A DNA stretch of 52,993 bases, from the IMG/VR virus record IMGVR_UViG_3300048834_000646, positions 1 to 52,993 of that record; one strand, 5' to 3'. Within the stretch, counting starts at the first letter, position 1. Each line of letters opens with the position of its first letter. The notes below the pieces were generated by a model. It ran no database searches, was not told the DNA's origin, and was given only the letters and a program-made list of their open reading frames with translations. The stretch comes from a virus. Shown here in pieces: positions 758 through 13,236 of this stretch. The position numbers and the translations under genes were made by a program.

Positions 758-1066
758 ATGACCGGACCACGCCCGACCCCGCGGCTCGATGCCCTCACGG
801 CCGAAGTCGCCGCCACCACCACCGTTGAAGATTCGGTGCTCCAGTTCATCGACGGCCTGCAGGAGCAGCTCGCGGAAGCGATCGCCTCCGGCGATCCCGT
901 CGAGCTCGAGAACCTCACGGCCGCCCTCGCGACGAAGCGCGAAGCGATCGCCGCGGCCATCTCGGCCGAGACGCCGTCGTCCGGCGACGGCACCACCGGC
1001 AGCGGTGATACCGGCAGCGCCAGCCCGGGCACCGGCCCGGTGGACGAGGACGGCGACGAGGGCTAA
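758..1066 (+). CDS. Small helical protein with Gly/Ser/Asp-rich tail
   Basis: 102 residues. Residues 25-70 form one long helix related in sequence to the previous gene. Residues 70-102 are a low-complexity Gly/Ser/Thr/Asp tail, likely disordered. Last gene before a strong terminator (1096-1130). Phage proteins of this shape are often minor virion or decoration proteins, but nothing here proves that. Confidence 0.65.
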   Translation: MTGPRPTPRLDALTAEVAATTTVEDSVLQFIDGLQEQLAEAIASGDPVELENLTAALATKREAIAAAISAETPSSGDGTTGSGDTGSASPGTGPVDEDGDEG

Positions 1067-1095
1067 CCTCGGCGCAGGGCTTTGAGGGACAGACG

Positions 1096-1130
1096 AAGCG
1101 CCGATCTCCGCAGTCCGGAGGTCGGCGCTT
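1096..1130. terminator. Convergent hairpin terminator
   Basis: A 15-base arm (1096-1110), a 5-base loop (1111-1115) and a 15-base arm (1116-1130) pair with a single G-T/A-C wobble. The outer bases are aa...tt, so it can act in both directions. It lies between the plus-strand genes ending at 1066 and the minus-strand gene ending at 1153, as expected for a bidirectional terminator. Confidence 0.8.
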
Positions 1131-1152
1131 TGTCGTGGTCAGCCGGCGCGGG

Positions 1153-1689
1153 CTAGAAGATCAGGTCGGCGATCGACCACGCGCGCGGCCGCAGCGCGGC
1201 GCGCTGGTAGAGGGGATGGCAGGGCTCCGCCGTGCGCCTGGTGAAGCCGAGCACGAACAGCGGCAGCCCCTCGAGGAGCCGCAGCACCTCATGCACGCGC
1301 GGCCGCTCCGCCCTGGCTCCCCACGCGCAGAGGACCAGACCGGCTGCCCGCGCTTGGGTCTGGATGTGCCAATCGTTGTCGGGCCCGATCACGGCGGCGC
1401 GCCGAAGCGCGTCCGACTGGCCGGGGAGCGTCCGGACGGCCTCCGGATCCGTCGAGCGCAGGGCGTAGAGATTCGTGACGACCAGCGCGGGGTAGCCCCA
1501 CTCGCGAGCGTACCGGAGGCACCGGCGGATCGTCGGATCATCCTGCTCCGCGGTCGCGGTCGACGGATTCAGCATGAGGAAGTTGCAGGGGGCCCCGGGA
1601 GCCCATCGGCGCTCGAGGCGGTAGCGGAGGAGCCCGCAGGGGCTGAAGGCGGCCAGAGAGGCCATAGGGACCGGGGGCGGGGCCTTCAA
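1153..1689 (-). CDS. DUF1643 family protein
   Basis: 178 residues from a TTG that overlaps the stop of the upstream gene (cttTGA type overlap). An in-frame ATG eight codons in (coordinate 1665) is an alternative start. It carries the DUF1643 hallmarks: LNPSTATAEQDDPTIRRC, then W-G-Y followed by VTNLYALRSTDP. The family is common in phages and bacteria and is thought to be enzymatic, but its reaction is not established. Cotranscribed with the O-like gene, so a role near replication or nucleotide metabolism is possible; this is inference. Confidence 0.85.
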   Translation of the reverse strand: MKAPPPVPMASLAAFSPCGLLRYRLERRWAPGAPCNFLMLNPSTATAEQDDPTIRRCLRYAREWGYPALVVTNLYALRSTDPEAVRTLPGQSDALRRAAVIGPDNDWHIQTQARAAGLVLCAWGARAERPRVHEVLRLLEGLPLFVLGFTRRTAEPCHPLYQRAALRPRAWSIADLIF

Positions 1690-2321
1690 AGCTCGATACG
1701 CAGCTGGTCATCCGGCAGGACGTGGTCCGGCCGTGAGGGAGCGAGGATCGCGCGCCAATCGCACGCCGTGCCGATGAGCTCCGGCTGGCCGCTTTTTCTC
1801 TCGCGCTTGCGCCCTTCTTCGTTAGAAAACTTAGAAGTCGTTGGTAGATCACCGGTGATCCCCGCCGAGGGATCATCCGTGATCCGCGCGGGGATCATGG
1901 GTGATCCCCGCTCCGCCTTCCGCGGGCGGCTCAGGGTGAGGAGCGTCGCGCTGACCTGTTGGGGAGCCTTGACCCGCTTCATCGAGCCGTGCTCGGGATG
2001 CCGCCAGCGATAGATCGAGGCGCGCTTCACCGGCCCGCGCGACTGCAGCTCGACCTCGAGCCAGCCGCACCGGACGAGCTGCGCGATCGCGCGCTTGATC
2101 GTCGGCACCGAGACGCCGCCCACCTCGGCCAGATCGGCCTGGGAGGGGCGGCACTCGCCGCGCTCGTTCATGTAGCCGCCGATGAGGCCGGCGACGCCTT
2201 TCGTGGTCAGGTGCAGGCGGCGATCGAGGATCAGCTCCCACGGCACGATCGAGGCGGTCCGGCGGTCGTTCAGGGGCGGGACGTAGGGCCGCACGATCGT
2301 GCGGCGCGAGGGGGCCGTCAT
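1686..2321 (-). CDS. Winged-helix replication initiator-like protein (lambda O-like)
   Basis: 211 residues. Residues 25-110 match the winged-helix domain seen in phage replication initiators: PWELILDRRL, then TKGVAGLIGGYMNE, SQADLAEVGGVSVPTIKRAI as recognition helix, and GWLEVEL as the wing strand. Residues 135-170 are a linker encoded by three 14-bp dyads next to an AT-rich stretch (1813-1906), the arrangement of lambda O, where origin iterons lie inside the gene. The C-terminal 35 residues have no recognised domain; in lambda O this end binds the helicase loader. No helicase or primase gene was recognised, so host proteins are probably recruited. The ATG lacks a clear Shine-Dalgarno site. 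Confidence 0.65.
   Translation of the reverse strand: MTAPSRRTIVRPYVPPLNDRRTASIVPWELILDRRLHLTTKGVAGLIGGYMNERGECRPSQADLAEVGGVSVPTIKRAIAQLVRCGWLEVELQSRGPVKRASIYRWRHPEHGSMKRVKAPQQVSATLLTLSRPRKAERGSPMIPARITDDPSAGITGDLPTTSKFSNEEGRKRERKSGQPELIGTACDWRAILAPSRPDHVLPDDQLRIEL
1813..1906. other. Putative replication origin inside the O-like gene
   Basis: Three related dyads, gatcaccggtgatc (1847-1860), gatcatccgtgatc (1871-1884) and gatcatgggtgatc (1893-1906), have start-to-start spacings of 24 and 22 bp, about two helical turns. Directly beside them, 1813-1843 is unusually AT-rich for this genome. Iterons plus an unwinding region inside the initiator gene is the lambda-type origin plan. Origin function is inferred. 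Confidence 0.5.
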
Positions 2322-2474
2322 GGCAGGAGGGGCATGGGAGGTCCGGAAGAAAAGAGTCGCCCTGTCCTGCCTGTGGAGGTGTCCTCAGCGGGCGCTGATG
2401 ACCAGGCGCTTCAGGGCGATTCAGGCGTGGCGGCGAGCTCCTCGGCACGGCTCCAACCGTGCCCCGGGTGCCAC

Positions 2475-2480
2475 AGTATA
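2475..2480 (-). promoter_or_regulatory. Possible -10 box for the minus-strand operon
   Basis: On the minus strand this reads tatact, one base from the sigma-70 consensus. No good -35 is seen. It would give a leader of about 150 bases before the O-like gene, containing a perfect 7-bp hairpin (2444-2450 with 2457-2463). Confidence 0.25.
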
Positions 2481-2531
2481 GCCAAGCCGCGGCCGGGGAC
2501 GCCACCCCGGCTGTGCCGGGGCGCGGTCTAC

Positions 2532-2563
2532 TTGCCAACTAGCGCACCGCCGCTATATATAGC
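2532..2563 (+). promoter_or_regulatory. Candidate early promoter and operator
   Basis: ttgcca (2532-2537) and tatata (2554-2559) are separated by 16 bases. The -10 lies in a perfect 12-bp palindrome, gctatatatagc (2552-2563). The first downstream gene (2595) encodes a ribbon-helix-helix protein, a class that often binds such short dyads in its own promoter. The 10-mer tatatatagc recurs with one change at 13238-13247. Confidence 0.5.
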
Positions 2564-2594
2564 CGCTGGCCCCACCACAGAACCGAGGCAATCG

Positions 2595-3014
2595 ATGGGA
2601 CGAAAGAGGACCGCAACGCGCGAGCGCAGGACGCCCGAGCAGGTCGCGGCGGAAGGAAGCACGATCACGATCGCTGCCGCGTTCCCTCCGGATCTCGCGG
2701 CCCATCTCAAGACGCTGCGCGGGACCACCGGTCGATCGGTCAGCTCGATGATCGTGGAGGCCGTGCGCCTGTGGATGGATCCCCCGGCCAGCGCGGGCCC
2801 GATCGGCAACGGGCCGTCCCCGCGCGCGCTCCCCGACGCAGGGGCCGCGGCCGAGGATCTCGCGGGCCTGTCGCCGGCGGACCGAGAGGCGATCGAGAAG
2901 TATCAGCGCGAGATCGCGGAGGGCGGGTCGGGCTTCACGCCTTCGGCCGACAGCGTGCGGCCGCCGCCGCTCCCCACTCTTCCGGAGATCCCTTGGCAGG
3001 ATCTTCCGCAGTAG
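2595..3014 (+). CDS. Ribbon-helix-helix regulator
   Basis: 139 residues from the ATG at 2595; the frame stays open far upstream, but this ATG follows a gagg site and the promoter. Residues 20-58 fit the RHH fold: the strand STITIAAAF, then PPDLAAHLKTLRGTTG, then RSVSSMIVEAVRLWMD as the second helix. The N-terminus is basic. The C-terminal 80 residues are Pro/Ala-rich and acidic with little structure. As first gene of the early operon, directly behind a palindromic promoter, it is likely an autoregulator. DNA target and partner are inferred. Confidence 0.75.
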   Translation: MGRKRTATRERRTPEQVAAEGSTITIAAAFPPDLAAHLKTLRGTTGRSVSSMIVEAVRLWMDPPASAGPIGNGPSPRALPDAGAAAEDLAGLSPADREAIEKYQREIAEGGSGFTPSADSVRPPPLPTLPEIPWQDLPQ

Positions 3015-3026
3015 CACAAACACAAC

Positions 3027-3051
3027 GCGCCACCGGAGGCCGGTGACGCGC
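3027..3051 (+). terminator. Hairpin after the regulator gene
   Basis: caccgg/ccggtg (6 bp, 3-base loop) is extended by gcgc/gcgc with a 2-base bulge. No T-run follows. It may attenuate transcription between the regulator and the downstream replication genes, which would let the regulator be made in excess. Confidence 0.4.
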
Positions 3052-3148
3052 TGCGTCAGGGAAGCACCCACAGGAGAAGCCGTCAGCGCGACACTCGGAG
3101 CCGCGTCGACAGACCAGTATACCTGCTCCGGATTGAGGACCGCAAGAC

Positions 3149-4504
3149 ATGGGAACCACAGGGAACCCCTTCGCTCCCGCAGTGCGCCAGCGACGGCCGA
3201 TGCGTATCGCCGTCACCGGCCCGTCGGGCTCGGGGAAATCAGAAAGCGCGCTGCGGATCGCGCGCCAGATCGTCGGCCCCTCGGGACGCATCGCCGCGAT
3301 CGACACGGAGAACGACGAGCTGCTGCTGTACGCGAACGACCCGGGCATCGGGAGCTTCGATCACGTCTCGTTGCGCCCGCCGTATCACACCTCGAAATAC
3401 CTTGAGCTGATGAGGTTCGCGGTCGACCAGAAATACGACGCGCTCGTCGTCGACTCGATGACGCACCAGTGGGCCGGCGAGGGCGGGATCCTGCAGCGCA
3501 AGGACCTGGCGGACGCGAAGCCGGGAAGCAACCCCTGGGTGAATTGGGGGCCCTTCACGATCGAGCACAACGCCTTCGTCGCCACCCTGCTCAACTATCC
3601 CCTCTGGATCATCTGCACGCTGCGCAGCAAGACCGAGTACACGCAGGAGGGCTCAGGCCGCGGCTCGAAGATCGTCAAGCTCGGGACCGCGCCGATCACG
3701 CGCGAGGGCACCGACTACGAGTTCTCCCTCGTCTTCGACATGGACACCACGCACCACGCGACCGCGATCAAAGGCCGCGGCGCGATCACGGCCAAGTTCG
3801 AGGGGCATCGGCTCGACTTCCGAGATCCGCGCTGGGTGAAGGAGATCCTCGACTGGCAGGCGAGCGCGGAGGAGCCGCCGCCGCCGGTCACCGAGGCGCA
3901 GGTCGCCACGCTGGCCGACCTGGCCAAGGATCCGCTCTGGACCGAGAAGGAGGCCGGGGCGATCCTGAGGAAGGGCTCGCAGCTCCGTCTCGCGAGCGAG
4001 ATGGAGGACTTCCTCGCCGAAGGCGTCGCCGCGCTGGTCGATCGGCGCAGGAAGGCCGGCGGGGAGGAGGGCGAGAGCGAGGCCGAGGACGAGGGAGCCG
4101 GCGAGGGGGAGGATCCCCAGCCGGCCGAGGAGCCGCCGCGGGCGCAGGACGACTTCTCCGAGCCCCCGGCGGTCCTCCTGCAGCAGACGGCCGAGGACGC
4201 GGCGCTCGAGCGGCAGCTCGACGCGGCGCAGGCCGGTGCCGCGGGCGAGGAGCAGCCCTCGCTGCTCCCGAAGGAGCCTGAGGCTGAGCCGGTGCCGAAG
4301 GCGACGCATGCGGTACCGGTCGAGGCCCTCGAGCCGCTCGAGCCGCTCGAGCCGCTCGGCGGCGGATCCGCGCGCGTCGACTGGCGCGGCGTGCTCGGCG
4401 GAAAGGCTCCGACGCCGCCGATCACGGATCCGGTCCCGCTCAAGACCAACCCGCGCCCTTTCGCCCCGGCTCCGGTGAAGGGCGAGGACGATCTTCCTTA
4501 CTGA
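3149..4504 (+). CDS. RecA-like/AAA ATPase (Sak4-like) with SSB-type C-terminus
   Basis: 451 residues. The first ~240 form a compact phage ATPase: Walker A GPSGSGKS (24-31), conserved I-D-T-E (51-54), Walker B LVVD (99-102) followed by S-M-T-H-Q-W. Phage ATPases of this type (Sak4, RecA-like) serve recombination and replication. Residues 300-430 are an acidic, Pro/Glu-rich linker containing a 9-bp tandem repeat (EPL three times). The last residues, GEDDLPY, imitate the acidic tip of bacterial SSB (DDDIPF type), which docks host repair and replication proteins. Such a tail on an ATPase is unusual. An exonuclease gene follows, consistent with a recombination/replication operon. Confidence 0.8.
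   Translation: MGTTGNPFAPAVRQRRPMRIAVTGPSGSGKSESALRIARQIVGPSGRIAAIDTENDELLLYANDPGIGSFDHVSLRPPYHTSKYLELMRFAVDQKYDALVVDSMTHQWAGEGGILQRKDLADAKPGSNPWVNWGPFTIEHNAFVATLLNYPLWIICTLRSKTEYTQEGSGRGSKIVKLGTAPITREGTDYEFSLVFDMDTTHHATAIKGRGAITAKFEGHRLDFRDPRWVKEILDWQASAEEPPPPVTEAQVATLADLAKDPLWTEKEAGAILRKGSQLRLASEMEDFLAEGVAALVDRRRKAGGEEGESEAEDEGAGEGEDPQPAEEPPRAQDDFSEPPAVLLQQTAEDAALERQLDAAQAGAAGEEQPSLLPKEPEAEPVPKATHAVPVEALEPLEPLEPLGGGSARVDWRGVLGGKAPTPPITDPVPLKTNPRPFAPAPVKGEDDLPY
4328..4354 (+). repeat. 9-bp tandem repeat, three copies
   Basis: ctcgagccg is repeated three times without change and encodes Leu-Glu-Pro three times in the flexible linker of the ATPase. Such in-frame units vary easily by slippage and probably only set linker length. 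Confidence 0.8.
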
Positions 4505-7514: not shown

Positions 7515-9140
7515 ATGACACAGAAGAGCGACGTAGCGATCGCACCGGCTTTGGCCGAAGTCCCGGCCCTCGCGGCGGAGTTGGAGCAGATCCCGATCGG
7601 CAACCTGAAGGAGTCCCCGCTCAATCCGCGCCAGACGTACGATCGCGCCGAGATGGCGCAGCTGGTGGAGAGCATCCGGACGCACGGCGTGCTCGAGCCG
7701 CTCCGCGCGCGGACGATGGGCGGCGGCCCGCACCTGCTGGTGAGCGGGCACCGCCGGTATCGCGCGGCGAAGGAAGCCGGTCTGTCGGTGGTCCCCGTCT
7801 TCCTCGGGAAGATGACGGACGCGCAGTACCTCGAGCTGCTCACCCTGGGCAACCTGCATCGGAAGGATCTGCATCCGCTCGAGGAGGCGCGCGGATTCGA
7901 GCTCCTGATCAAGGAGCTGCGCTACGACGTGCAGCGCATCGCGGAGCGCGTCGGCCATTCCACCACGCATGTCTACGACCGGCTCAAGCTGCTCAGGCTC
8001 ACGAAGCCCCTGCAGGATCTGTTTCAGGAGGGGCACCTGACGACGGCCCACGCGGTGATCCTCTCGCGCCTTGACGCGGCGAGCCAAGCGCGGGCGCTCG
8101 GCTCCGCGAAGGATCAGTGGCGTAGCTCCGCGATCTTCACCTCGGAGACGCTGCGCGGGCACGAGCCGCTGGCGCTCGAGTCGCGCGGCGCGGATCCGTG
8201 GCACGGCGTGAAGGCCGTCAGCGCGCGCGAGCTGCAGGCGTGGGTCGACAATCATGTGCACTTCAATCCGGCCGCGGAGGATCTCGCGAATCTCTTTCCC
8301 GAGACGCAGCGCGTCCTCGCGGCCGCGAGCACCGGCGACATGAAGGTCGTGCAGATCACGCACGAGCACTATGTGCAGCCCGACGCGCGGCAGGGCAAGA
8401 TCATCGGGCCGCGCTCCTGGAAGCGCGCGGATGGCCAGCTGACGTCGAAGGAGTGCGAGCATAGCGTCGTCGGCGTGATCGCGGCGGGCCCCGGCCGCGG
8501 GGAGGCATTCCGCGTCTGCATTGCGAAGAAGAGCTGCGCGATCCACTGGCGGCAGGAGAAGGCGGAGGCCGCCCGCCGGCAGGCCGATCGCGAGAAGCAC
8601 GGCGGGGCAACGGTCTCGCAGCGGGAGAAGGAGAAGGAGTCGCAGGAGCGTCAGCGCCGCGAGGCGCAGCGCGCCGCGGAGGAGCAGTATCGGAAGAGTC
8701 TGGAGCGGGCACGGCCTGCGATCGTCAAGGCGATCTATGACGTGATCGCGAAGGCCCCGGTCGGCATGACGAGCACAGCCGCGAAGCTCGTGCTGCAGCG
8801 CTGCTCCCATTACGGGGCCAACCGGCCGAAGCTCGCCAAGGCGGGACAGGGAGCCGACGATGTGGTGCGCCTTGCCGCGCTGCAGATCCTGCTCTCGGCC
8901 GCGAACAACTCGTGGTCGCTGCTCCGCGACGGCGGCAAGCAGCTAAAGGAATTTGGCATCGACGTGCGCGCGATCGCGGACGCGGTCACTCCCGCGCCGG
9001 CGCAGAAGGTGAAGGCCGCGAAGAAGGCGAAGCCGGGGGCCAAGGCGAGGCCGGGGGCCAAAGCGAAAAAGGCCGCGGCACCGGCACGCAAGAAGGCGGC
9101 GAAGAAGGCCGCGCCGAAGCGTGGGCGAGGTGCCCGGTGA
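7515..9140 (+). CDS. ParB-like protein with histone-H1-like tail
   Basis: 541 residues. Residues 20-200 contain the ParB/Spo0J N-terminal domain: NPRQTYD, then SGHRRYRAAKEAG (the arginine-rich CTP-binding motif), and a helix-turn-helix near 135-165 (RIAERVGHSTTHVYDRL). The middle holds a Cys-containing segment (near 315-345) and a long charged coiled coil (345-395). The last 45 residues are Lys/Ala/Pro-rich with an 18-bp DNA repeat, like bacterial histone-H1-like tails. No ParA gene is nearby, so plasmid-type partition is unlikely; DNA compaction, replication control or regulation is more plausible. The start has a ggagaag site. Confidence 0.85.
   Translation: MTQKSDVAIAPALAEVPALAAELEQIPIGNLKESPLNPRQTYDRAEMAQLVESIRTHGVLEPLRARTMGGGPHLLVSGHRRYRAAKEAGLSVVPVFLGKMTDAQYLELLTLGNLHRKDLHPLEEARGFELLIKELRYDVQRIAERVGHSTTHVYDRLKLLRLTKPLQDLFQEGHLTTAHAVILSRLDAASQARALGSAKDQWRSSAIFTSETLRGHEPLALESRGADPWHGVKAVSARELQAWVDNHVHFNPAAEDLANLFPETQRVLAAASTGDMKVVQITHEHYVQPDARQGKIIGPRSWKRADGQLTSKECEHSVVGVIAAGPGRGEAFRVCIAKKSCAIHWRQEKAEAARRQADREKHGGATVSQREKEKESQERQRREAQRAAEEQYRKSLERARPAIVKAIYDVIAKAPVGMTSTAAKLVLQRCSHYGANRPKLAKAGQGADDVVRLAALQILLSAANNSWSLLRDGGKQLKEFGIDVRAIADAVTPAPAQKVKAAKKAKPGAKARPGAKAKKAAAPARKKAAKKAAPKRGRGAR
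9024..9059 (+). repeat. 18-bp tandem repeat in the ParB tail
   Basis: Two 18-base units (9024-9041 and 9042-9059) differ at one position and encode the KAKPGA/KARPGA units of the basic tail. Confidence 0.75.
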
Positions 9141-10126: not shown

Positions 10127-10671
10127 CCGAGGGGCGGATCCGGATCCCGAAGTGGGGCGACGCCAAGGAGTCCGAGCACCAACGCTGGTGCGTCGCGCTG
10201 CTGGTGGCGCTCGGCTTCGAGTCCCCGATCTATGTGACCGATCAGGGCGTCCGCGTGCTGAAGCATGAGGACGGCTCCGTCAGCGGCGATCCGCGCGGCA
10301 CGCGCACCACGGCCGGCCAGCCCGATATCAGCTATGGCTTCCACCTCGGGCGCGGCCTCCTCGTGATCTTCGAGGTCAAGCCGCCGAAGCGGGCCCGGGC
10401 GCTGGCCGGTCGCCTCGAGCGCGGCGCGAAGAACAAGGCGCAGCTGAAGGAGTATCGCAACGCCGGCGCGCAGCAGCACTTCGGCGCGCTCGCGCGCCGG
10501 CTGGGCGAGGCCGTCCCCGCGATCCGGTATGGGTACGGCTCGCTGCCCGAGCTGCTGGCCTCCCTGCTCGGCCCCTTCACGGTGCCCGAGCTCACCGCGG
10601 CGCTCAAGCGGTGCCCGCTCCCCTTCGATCTGCACGCGGAGGCCTTGGCCCTCATCAGCCGGTCCAAGTAG
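10117..10671 (+). CDS. VRR-NUC-type PD-(D/E)xK nuclease
   Basis: 184 residues. The core motif reads GQPDIS (D70), then LLVIFEVKPP (E86, K88), with an upstream ESEHQ helix (E18/E20) and a downstream QLKEYRNAGAQQHF helix. This order matches VRR-NUC nucleases related to Holliday-junction resolvases. It likely cuts branched or flap DNA during phage recombination or packaging. Placed beside the wHTH gene and upstream of the modification-like cassette. Catalytic residues are complete. Confidence 0.75.
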   Translation: MGLTEGRIRIPKWGDAKESEHQRWCVALLVALGFESPIYVTDQGVRVLKHEDGSVSGDPRGTRTTAGQPDISYGFHLGRGLLVIFEVKPPKRARALAGRLERGAKNKAQLKEYRNAGAQQHFGALARRLGEAVPAIRYGYGSLPELLASLLGPFTVPELTAALKRCPLPFDLHAEALALISRSK

Positions 10672-10700
10672 GTTCCTCGGGACTCCTTCCCCAGGCTGAT

Positions 10701-11360
10701 ATGTCTCCCGCCGCACCACGCCAGAAGAAAGCCCCTGCCCCGCCGGCCGTCAGTCCCGAGGCCGCGGCGGCGGGGATCCCCGACGCCCTCAAGGGCCGGC
10801 GGATGGCCTTCGAGATGATGAGCCCGAAGCGCTGCAAGCCCAACCCTGACAATCCGCGCCGGATCGATGATGACAACCGGGAGCGCCTGAAGGCGGGGAT
10901 CACGCAGCTCGGCTGGGTGGACCCGATCATCCTGCGCGCCGAGAGCCGCGTGATCCTCGGCGGCCATCAGCGGCACGATATCGCGATGGAGCTCAAGTTC
11001 CCGAAGGTGCCGGTCGTCCTGGTGTACGGGCTCAGCGACTCGGAGGCCGAAGCGGTCACGATCATTCTGAACAACCCCGCCGCGCAGGGCGAGTGGGATC
11101 TCGACAAGCTCACCGCGTCCCTCGGCCGGCTCCGGGATCAGGAGTTCCCCCTCGAGCTGACCGGCTTCGATCGCGCGGCCGCGGACAAGATGCTGGCCGG
11201 CGTGCCGGCGCTGGCACCACCGACCTCCCTCGATCCCGGCGACGGCCGGTACCGCGAGCAATACGGCGTGATCGTGATCTGCGCCGACGCGACCGAGCAG
11301 GAGGCGATCTACAACCGCCTGCAGCAGGACGGCCTCGACTGCCGCGTGGTGGTGACCTGA
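10701..11360 (+). CDS. ParB N-domain protein of a modification-like cassette
   Basis: 219 residues. Residues 35-140 form a ParB-type N-terminal domain: NPDNPRRIDDDN, GITQLGWVDPIIL, then VILGGHQRHDIAMEL, the analogue of the GxRR nucleotide-binding motif. It lacks the helix-turn-helix of full ParB. Residues 170-219 form a small separate unit (YGVIVICADATEQEAIY...CRVVVT), predicted beta-alpha-beta. This pairing is familiar from phage proteins next to DNA-modifying enzymes. The stop overlaps the next start (TGATG), so it is coupled to the ABC/GNAT fusion. A role in DNA binding or nucleotide-dependent control of that enzyme is inferred. Confidence 0.75.
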   Translation: MSPAAPRQKKAPAPPAVSPEAAAAGIPDALKGRRMAFEMMSPKRCKPNPDNPRRIDDDNRERLKAGITQLGWVDPIILRAESRVILGGHQRHDIAMELKFPKVPVVLVYGLSDSEAEAVTIILNNPAAQGEWDLDKLTASLGRLRDQEFPLELTGFDRAAADKMLAGVPALAPPTSLDPGDGRYREQYGVIVICADATEQEAIYNRLQQDGLDCRVVVT

Positions 11361-12514
11361 TGCGCGTCACCGTCCGCAATCGCACCAGCGACTTCAACAG
11401 CTACCGCGCGGCGCGCGTCAAGTCGCTCTTCAACGCCGAGAACGGATGCAACTTCGATCTGGAGGCCGAGCTGCCGATCGAGGAGTCGGACTGGCGCGTC
11501 GGCGCGATCGTGGGACCGTCCGGATCCGGCAAGAGCTCGCTCGGCCGTTTGCTCTGGGGGCCCGAGGCGATGTGGTCGCCGGCGTGGCCGTCCGATCAGC
11601 CGATCATCGACGCGATCGCGCCCGGGGCGGACTTCAACGACGTCACCGCCTCGCTGGCGGCCGTGGGCCTCGGCTCGGTGCCGGCGTGGCTCCGGCCCTT
11701 CCCGATCCTCAGCAACGGGGAGCAGTTTCGCGCGAACCTGGCGCGCGTGATCTGCGACGCGCCGGAGCGCGTCGTCATCGATGAGTTTACCTCGGTGGTC
11801 GATCGGCAAATCGCCAAGTTCGGCGCGCTCGCGTTTCAGAAGGCGTGGCGGCGTACGCGTGGGCAGGCCGTGCTCCTGAGCTGTCACTACGACGTGCTCG
11901 AGTGGCTGGAGCCTGACTGGATCTTTGACACCGCGACCGGCCTCTTCGATAGGGGGTCACTTCGGCGGCCCCGCTTTGATCTCGAAATTTTCGAGACGGA
12001 CTGGCGATATTGGCCCCATTTTGAGCCGCATTACTATTTGACACTGCCGAAGATGATCGCGGCGCGCTGCTATGTGGCCACGATCGACGGCGAGCTCGTG
12101 GCGCACGTCGCGGTCGGTACGAAAAACGTCGGCAAGATGGTCGAGGCGCGCGCCTCGCGGATGGTGGTGATGCCGGAGTTTCAAGGAGCCGGGATCGGGA
12201 TCCGATTCCTGAACGCAGTCTGCGAGCTGCAGCTGCGCGGCGAGGGGAGACTTCCCGGCCGGAAGGTCACGACCATTTTTCACACCTCGCACCCCGGCCT
12301 CTGCGCAGGGCTGCGCCGCGATCGCAAGTGGGCGCAAACGAGCGCGGTCCTCCTCGGCACCAACAAGGCGAAGTCCCGCGCCAGCATCAGCAAGTCGCAG
12401 AAGGTCACGCGACCAGGCGCGCCGATCAATGCAGGGTACGGAGGACACTTCCGCGCGGTGCAGGGATTCCGCTACCTCGGTGCCGAGCGCGCCTGCGCGC
12501 CGCAGGGATCGTGA
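11360..12514 (+). CDS. ABC-ATPase fused to GNAT (Mom-like) acyltransferase
   Basis: 384 residues, two domains. Residues 20-195 are a soluble ABC ATPase: Walker A GPSGSGKS (52-59), signature LSNGEQ (117-122), Walker B VVIDE (138-142), D-loop near D148 and switch His176. No membrane segment or transporter partner is present. Residues 205-384 are a GNAT-type acyltransferase: RMVVMPEFQGAGIG (267-280) is the acyl-CoA-binding motif A, with SHPGL and RAVQGFRYLG later. The GNAT-fold Mom protein of phage Mu modifies adenine in DNA, so this may be an ATP-driven nucleobase modification enzyme. Overlapped by ParB-like and formyltransferase genes. Substrate unknown. Confidence 0.8.
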   Translation: MRVTVRNRTSDFNSYRAARVKSLFNAENGCNFDLEAELPIEESDWRVGAIVGPSGSGKSSLGRLLWGPEAMWSPAWPSDQPIIDAIAPGADFNDVTASLAAVGLGSVPAWLRPFPILSNGEQFRANLARVICDAPERVVIDEFTSVVDRQIAKFGALAFQKAWRRTRGQAVLLSCHYDVLEWLEPDWIFDTATGLFDRGSLRRPRFDLEIFETDWRYWPHFEPHYYLTLPKMIAARCYVATIDGELVAHVAVGTKNVGKMVEARASRMVVMPEFQGAGIGIRFLNAVCELQLRGEGRLPGRKVTTIFHTSHPGLCAGLRRDRKWAQTSAVLLGTNKAKSRASISKSQKVTRPGAPINAGYGGHFRAVQGFRYLGAERACAPQGS

Positions 12515-13236
12515 CCACGACCGCACCGCTTCGCGTCTACCTCTGCGGCCAGCAGGACTTCGGCCGGCGCACGCTGCAGCTGCTCCTCGCCATGCCGGGG
12601 ATCGAGGTCGTCGGCGTCAGCGCGCCGGAAGTCTCGCGCGCCTCGGGGCGGATCGATCGACTCTGGGATCTCGCGCATGAGCATGCGCTGCCCTGCCTCG
12701 CCGCGGGCCAGCTGCGTGCCGAGCTGCTGCCGGCGCGCACCGACCTGATCATCGCCGCCCACTCGCACGATTACCTCGGCCGCCTGACGCGCGCGCGCGC
12801 GACCCTGGGCGCGATCGGGTATCACCCCTCGCTGCTGCCTCGCCATCGCGGGCGGGATGCTGTTCGCTGGACGCTGAAGATGCGCGACCCGATCGCCGGC
12901 GGCACCGTCTTCTGGCTCGGCGACGCGATCGACGCCGGGGATATCGCGGCGCAGGACTGGTGCTGGGTGCTCCCGGACGACACGCCGGCCACGCTCTGGC
13001 GGCAGCGCCTTGCGCCGATGGGCCTGCGGCTCTTCGCTCGAGTCCTCGCGGACCTACAAGCCCGCCAGATCATCCGGGAGCCGCAGGAGGAGGCCGTGGC
13101 CACCTGGGAGCCCTCGTGGGGCCGGGAGCCCCTCTTCCGGCCGGAGTTGCCCCTCCTCGGGGACGGCGGCCCGGGCCGTCTGGCGGGCTGGACCGTCCGC
13201 CGGGGGGAGGGGGGCTGGCGCGGACCGGTGCCTTAG
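12511..13236 (+). CDS. Formyltransferase-like protein
   Basis: 241 residues from GTG overlapping the previous stop (GTGA). The N-terminal part matches the Fmt/PurN fold: VYLCGQQDFGRRTLQ start, LIIAAHSH, then YHPSLLPRHRG and DAIDAGDI. The catalytic triad of PurN/Fmt is Asn-His-Asp; His105 and Asp141 are present, but the Asn position is Gly103. The typical Fmt C-terminal tRNA-binding domain is missing. It may transfer a one-carbon or related group to a small molecule or to DNA in the same pathway as the ABC/GNAT protein. Last gene of the operon. Confidence 0.75.
   Translation: MTTTAPLRVYLCGQQDFGRRTLQLLLAMPGIEVVGVSAPEVSRASGRIDRLWDLAHEHALPCLAAGQLRAELLPARTDLIIAAHSHDYLGRLTRARATLGAIGYHPSLLPRHRGRDAVRWTLKMRDPIAGGTVFWLGDAIDAGDIAAQDWCWVLPDDTPATLWRQRLAPMGLRLFARVLADLQARQIIREPQEEAVATWEPSWGREPLFRPELPLLGDGGPGRLAGWTVRRGEGGWRGPVP

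Follow-up and report, generated by a model that had tools for sequence, protein, structure and literature searches.

The closest described systems carry the sites of replication initiation within the gene for the initiator itself. Phage lambda, whose ori lies in gene O, and the Stx phages have spaced inverted-repeat sites within the initiator gene, and those of lambda, its iterons, are inverted repeats of imperfect form (PMC7466680). In staphylococcal plasmids with an origin of the pSK41 (RepA_N) type, the winged-helix N-terminus of the initiator binds repeats in the central part of rep, and the linker that the origin encodes is dispensable (PMC5703833). At oriL of phage SPP1, gene 38, which encodes the origin-binding protein, contains direct repeats and an AT-rich unwinding element (PMC6316719). 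The oriV of repABC plasmids is located inside the initiator gene repC, together with an AT-rich region, and replication is lost when this origin is altered by silent changes (PMC3155836).

The locus reported here lies in a window of 52,993 bases, by which we mean the whole stretch of viral DNA that was analysed; its features are collected in Table 1. With lambda it shares spaced inverted repeats of mixed codon phase within an initiator gene, here at spacings of 22 and 24, and an AT-rich tract directly downstream of them. Lambda has four sites of 18-19 bp and the present locus three 14-bp GATCA dyads; the locus also differs in having an initiator with no Pfam match to Phage_rep_O (PF04492; threshold E 0.1), and in its adjacent gene, which belongs to DUF1643, no P-type loader gene being recognised beside the initiator. 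Compared with the pSK41 type, no Pfam match to RepA_N was obtained (up to E 0.1), the likeness in fold is weak, and the C-terminus is short and disordered rather than a folded DnaG-binding domain. Phage SPP1 encodes a loader and a helicase of its own and possesses a second origin, none of which was detected here, and no iterons were found in the repC described for the repABC plasmids, in contrast to the present gene.

Table 1. Features of the initiator gene, with positions in the window
Feature	Position	Strand	Details
Replication initiator gene	1686-2321	minus	211 aa; HTH_36 winged-helix N-terminal domain, disordered linker, short C-terminus
Winged-helix DNA-binding domain	2003-2240	minus	residues about 28-106; proposed dyad binder; PF13730 and AlphaFold2
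Dyad 1 in gene direction	1893-1906	minus	GATCACCCATGATC; plus strand GATCATGGGTGATC; encodes GSPMI, residues 139-143
Dyad 2 in gene direction	1871-1884	minus	GATCACGGATGATC; plus strand GATCATCCGTGATC; encodes RITDDP, residues 146-151
Dyad 3 in gene direction	1847-1860	minus	GATCACCGGTGATC, perfect palindrome; encodes GITGDL, residues 154-159
AT-rich tract, proposed unwinding element	1793-1851	none	richest 40-mer 1812-1851

The initiator gene, its dyads and the AT-rich tract

The 211-aa product matched the Pfam family HTH_36 (PF13730, 3e-10) and, among the PHROGs, phrog_270, annotated as 'replication initiation protein' (4.6e-11), as well as the O-like families phrog_391 (3.7e-8), phrog_678 and phrog_345. 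An AlphaFold2 model, for which 18 related sequences served as input, was confident over the winged helix and of low confidence from about residue 112 to residue 211. Its structural neighbours in a viral library include phage 'replication protein O'; those in the PDB were weak matches of a sort common to winged helices, plasmid Rep and DnaD structures included, and the weak Foldseek matches include the initiator/Rep structures 4pt7 and 5kbj. By homology and by its modelled fold, the gene is predicted to encode an initiator-type DNA-binding protein. Homologue searches of viral contigs, phages and plasmids yielded no close relative of the initiator, and the neighbouring AAA protein had no close relative in viral contigs.

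A sequence-only reading of this DNA had proposed three spaced 14-bp dyads inside the replication gene, in the linker that follows the winged helix. Both parts of the proposal were borne out. The three dyads, of the type GATCA-N4-TGATC with start spacings of 24 and 22, occupy residues 139-159, within the predicted disordered part of a protein whose confident fold ends at about residue 106, and the approximately 50 residues left after the array are likewise predicted by AlphaFold2 to be disordered. No exact GATCA-N4-TGATC besides these three was found in the record, and nowhere else in it do three identical-arm dyads fall within 100 bp; when the whole window was shuffled by dinucleotides, any three-dyad array of that kind was present in 2 of 100 shuffles. 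Dyad 1 (GSPMI) is read in one codon phase and dyads 2 and 3 (ITDD/ITGD) in another, which indicates that DNA rather than peptide is conserved. When the gene was recoded synonymously 20,000 times according to phage codon usage, three dyads appeared in none of the recodings and two dyads in four. From the two codon phases and the recoding test taken together, the dyads look as though they are kept at the DNA level and not as peptide. A repeated peptide of a low-complexity linker would fit the disorder of this region and the short, similar peptides that the dyads encode, but there are two different peptides in two codon phases, the spacing of 22 is not a multiple of 3, the codons are rare and none of the 20,000 recodings gave the array, so that we regard this explanation as scarcely credible.

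The AT-richest 40-mer of the initiator gene adjoins dyad 3, downstream in gene direction, and reaches 60% AT against a window mean of 31%; the earlier claim that the dyads lie beside the most AT-rich stretch of the gene is thus correct. Elsewhere in the window 60% AT is reached at only three places, each comprising one or two positions. The codons of the tract are rare, equally low values being found in only 0.26% of the 18-codon windows of 11 other ORFs, and its AT content was reached by none of 20,000 recodings. The dyad recoding test and the codon use of the AT-rich tract are two separate signs of selection on DNA.

Binding of the dyads by the encoded winged-helix protein could also serve as an operator or handcuffing site for expression or copy number instead of as an origin. 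GntR/MarR-type winged-helix proteins bind such dyads, and the initiator has weak Pfam matches to families of this type. Against this, the sites lie more than 400 nt into the gene, beside its AT peak and not at the gene start, a search for a promoter-like site in the interval 1000-3200 found none, and an operator would not be expected to have its AT-rich tract always on the same side, as is the case throughout the family. We consider such a regulatory site improbable.

The comparison with lambda was placed on a common footing by reading gene O with the same scripts as a positive control. In lambda the iterons are spaced by 20, 24 and 23 and their codon phase is mixed; the AT-richest 40-mer of gene O follows directly on iteron 4. 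In gene direction the order is the same in the window as in lambda: winged helix, dyads, AT-rich tract, C-terminus. Arrangement, spacing, orientation and DNA-level constraint, all read with the same scripts, support the proposed likeness to the plan of lambda ori. The accompanying statement that sequence and palindromic form differ from lambda stands for the sequence, whereas the form differs in perfection and not in kind (PMC7466680). Anatomy and conservation thus support the interpretation of the locus as a lambda-type internal iteron origin.

Internal repeat arrays in other replication genes

Viral contigs were scanned for two GATCA dyads separated by 4-14 bp, and such pairs were recovered in 23 contigs. 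Whenever a pair was located in a long ORF, the gene encoded an HTH initiator, and two unrelated lineages of these were represented (L002/L011 and L004/L007); in both, the last dyad marks the start of the AT-richest 40-mer of the gene. In the remaining contigs the pairs lie outside ORFs, and these are a different matter from the arrays in initiator genes. Two sets of contigs (L003, L009 and L015; L008, L010, L012 and L019) carry conserved GATCA dyad clusters outside ORFs of at least 60 aa, a different class, perhaps of operators or origins. Runs of GATCA/TGATC with a 10-bp period, approximately one helical turn, were observed outside ORFs of at least 60 aa in L005, L020, L021 and L022. Bacterial genomes scanned for GGATCA-N4-TGATCC pairs yielded four pairs in tandem, none of them covered by a recognisable initiator gene. 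The idea that GATCA-type dyads are marked by a lysine in the recognition helix (present in 3 of 3 cases, against 3 of about 24) was discarded as unsupported; a counter-case is a new HTH initiator with ATCAC-type dyads (L249), which has aspartate at that position.

Peptide motifs suggested GTCAC-NN-GTGAC as a sister dyad; no published work naming it was found in the open-access literature. Tandem pairs of this dyad are present in at least 120 viral contigs, mostly inside replication genes. The matches were clustered, each gene was defined by its longest frame, and cases with ambiguous reading frames were set aside, which left, among the matches listed, 49 non-redundant genes; as these were chosen for the dyad, they show what such arrays look like and not how frequent they are. 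The palindrome CTGCA-NN-TGCAG served as a control. Among the matches listed, the dyads are spaced mostly by 22-24 bp and placed near mid-gene, and mixed codon phase was found in 31 of the 49 genes but in only 1 of 31 control genes (p = 2e-8). The control spacings were multiples of 3 in 93% of cases, as in true peptide repeats. In the same listed matches AT was in excess over the ORF in the 80 bp downstream of the dyads (p = 3e-7; control, 0.93). The AT-richest 40-mer lay just downstream in 22 of the 49 genes, where 13% would be expected. Pfam families recognised among the listed genes were HTH_36, DUF1376, DnaT, Phage_rep_org_N, DnaD_N and, in one case, Phage_rep_O, and dozens of the listed array members matched replication-initiation PHROGs.

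These arrays bear on two further explanations of the dyads in the window. The first is that a GATC-rich cluster works through Dam-type methylation and not through initiator binding, a notion prompted by the six GATC in 60 bp, the window maximum. GATC is common throughout the window, however (751 copies against 463 expected from dinucleotides), and the equivalent GTCAC-dyad arrays have no GATC in the dyad core; methylation is accordingly a most unlikely basis for the array. The second is that the dyads form a parS-like partition site for one of two ParB-like proteins of the phage, which encodes ParB-domain genes at 7515-9140 and 10611-11360. The TCAC/GTGA core of parS is similar to that of the dyads. 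We judge this very improbable, since ParB-like genes occur in only 1 of 63 array loci (each locus being a part of its contig), the arrays sit in initiator genes, and TTCACGTGAA is absent from the window.

As a search for perfect identical-arm dyads misses the imperfect iterons of lambda, a mismatch-tolerant repeat search was applied to 14 initiator regions of named phages. These were selected by protein homology to two family members alone; the two query proteins came from the dyad-selected set, and the members of the sample were not picked for repeats. Three to six internal repeats were found in 12 of the 14 initiators, against weaker three-copy sets in 3 of 24 neighbouring genes (p = 1e-5), and the 12 represent about ten independent cases, because JBD68 and U2 (same repeats) and LittleTokyo and Juno112 (same host and gene order) are related. 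The repeats lie mid-gene after the HTH, with successive spacings mostly of 21-25 bp, some of 17-18 bp and a few of at least 30 bp. Their codon phase is mixed in nine initiators and constant in those of YeP1, C72C1 and ZF40, where peptide repeats are possible. Judged from these sequences, HTH_36-type phage initiators seem as a rule to contain internal repeat arrays. Gene O of Pseudomonas phage LESphi3 (L236, nt 2010-2843) has six mid-gene internal repeats of the GCAGgAaATGCACC type with 17-bp and 22-bp spacings, which by their sequence are a clear candidate origin, unannotated in the record.

A model for initiation and its wider meaning

Computation has established the dyads, their spacing, the AT-rich tract and the side on which it lies, the constraint at the DNA level and the recurrence of such arrays in other initiators. 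On these we base the view, which we hold to be very probable, that the locus is a theta replication origin inside its own initiator gene, in which the winged helix would bind the dyads, the resulting complex would melt the AT-rich tract and a helicase would be brought in; dyad binding, melting, helicase loading and the replication start are thus what we infer from the arrangement. Each 14-bp dyad would be bound by the encoded winged helix, probably as a dimer, and, with the three occupied dyads about two helical turns apart, the resulting assembly would be compact and would melt the AT-rich tract next to dyad 3. The host replicative helicase would then be recruited by the C-terminus of the protein or by an unrecognised partner. 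On this view the amino acids of the linker arise incidentally from the DNA sites, and the disorder of this segment leaves them free to vary.

Three family searches detected no DnaB (PF03796), IstB/DnaC-type loader (PF01695) or family-A polymerase in the record, a contig that may be incomplete. The DUF1643/phrog_3230 gene (1153-1689, minus strand) shares four bases with the end of the initiator gene and occupies the position of the loader gene P in the lambda order, which makes its product a possible candidate for the unrecognised partner. The cumulative GC skew has its minimum at 1038, near the array, in a profile so weak as to be indistinguishable from noise or gene orientation. At 1092-1134, between two convergent genes, there is a strong hairpin with 19-nt arms that are 89% complementary and a 5-nt loop, which is probably a two-way terminator.

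The two ParB-domain genes, both on the plus strand of one phage, point to a possible plasmid-like or partition function. Two neighbouring plus-strand ORFs (11093-12514 and 12328-13236) encode an ATP-binding/GNAT acetyltransferase combination (phrog_11143, 8e-146) and a formyltransferase-like protein (phrog_9240, PF00551), an unusual cargo for a tailed phage.

More tentatively, and with the balance of our judgement somewhat against it, one origin grammar may be common to the phage replication gene families HTH_36, DUF1376, DnaT-type and Phage_rep_org_N: a TCAC/GTGA-cored dyad repeated mid-gene, mostly every 21-24 bp, followed by an AT-rich tract. A dyad with this core can be read in only two of the three codon phases because the third contains a TGA stop, and this limit, if true, would tie the evolution of origin and linker together. 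Were the grammar shared, sequence alone would suffice to locate the origin in many uncultured phages.

The locus provides a testable origin for a GC-rich phage of which the collections searched yielded no close relative. An origin inside the initiator gene is a known plan, that of lambda, and the more useful outcome is the likely general rule for HTH_36 initiators. If the repeats are the rule, they would allow origins to be predicted, and binding specificity to be set against recognition-helix sequence, across many uncultured phages.
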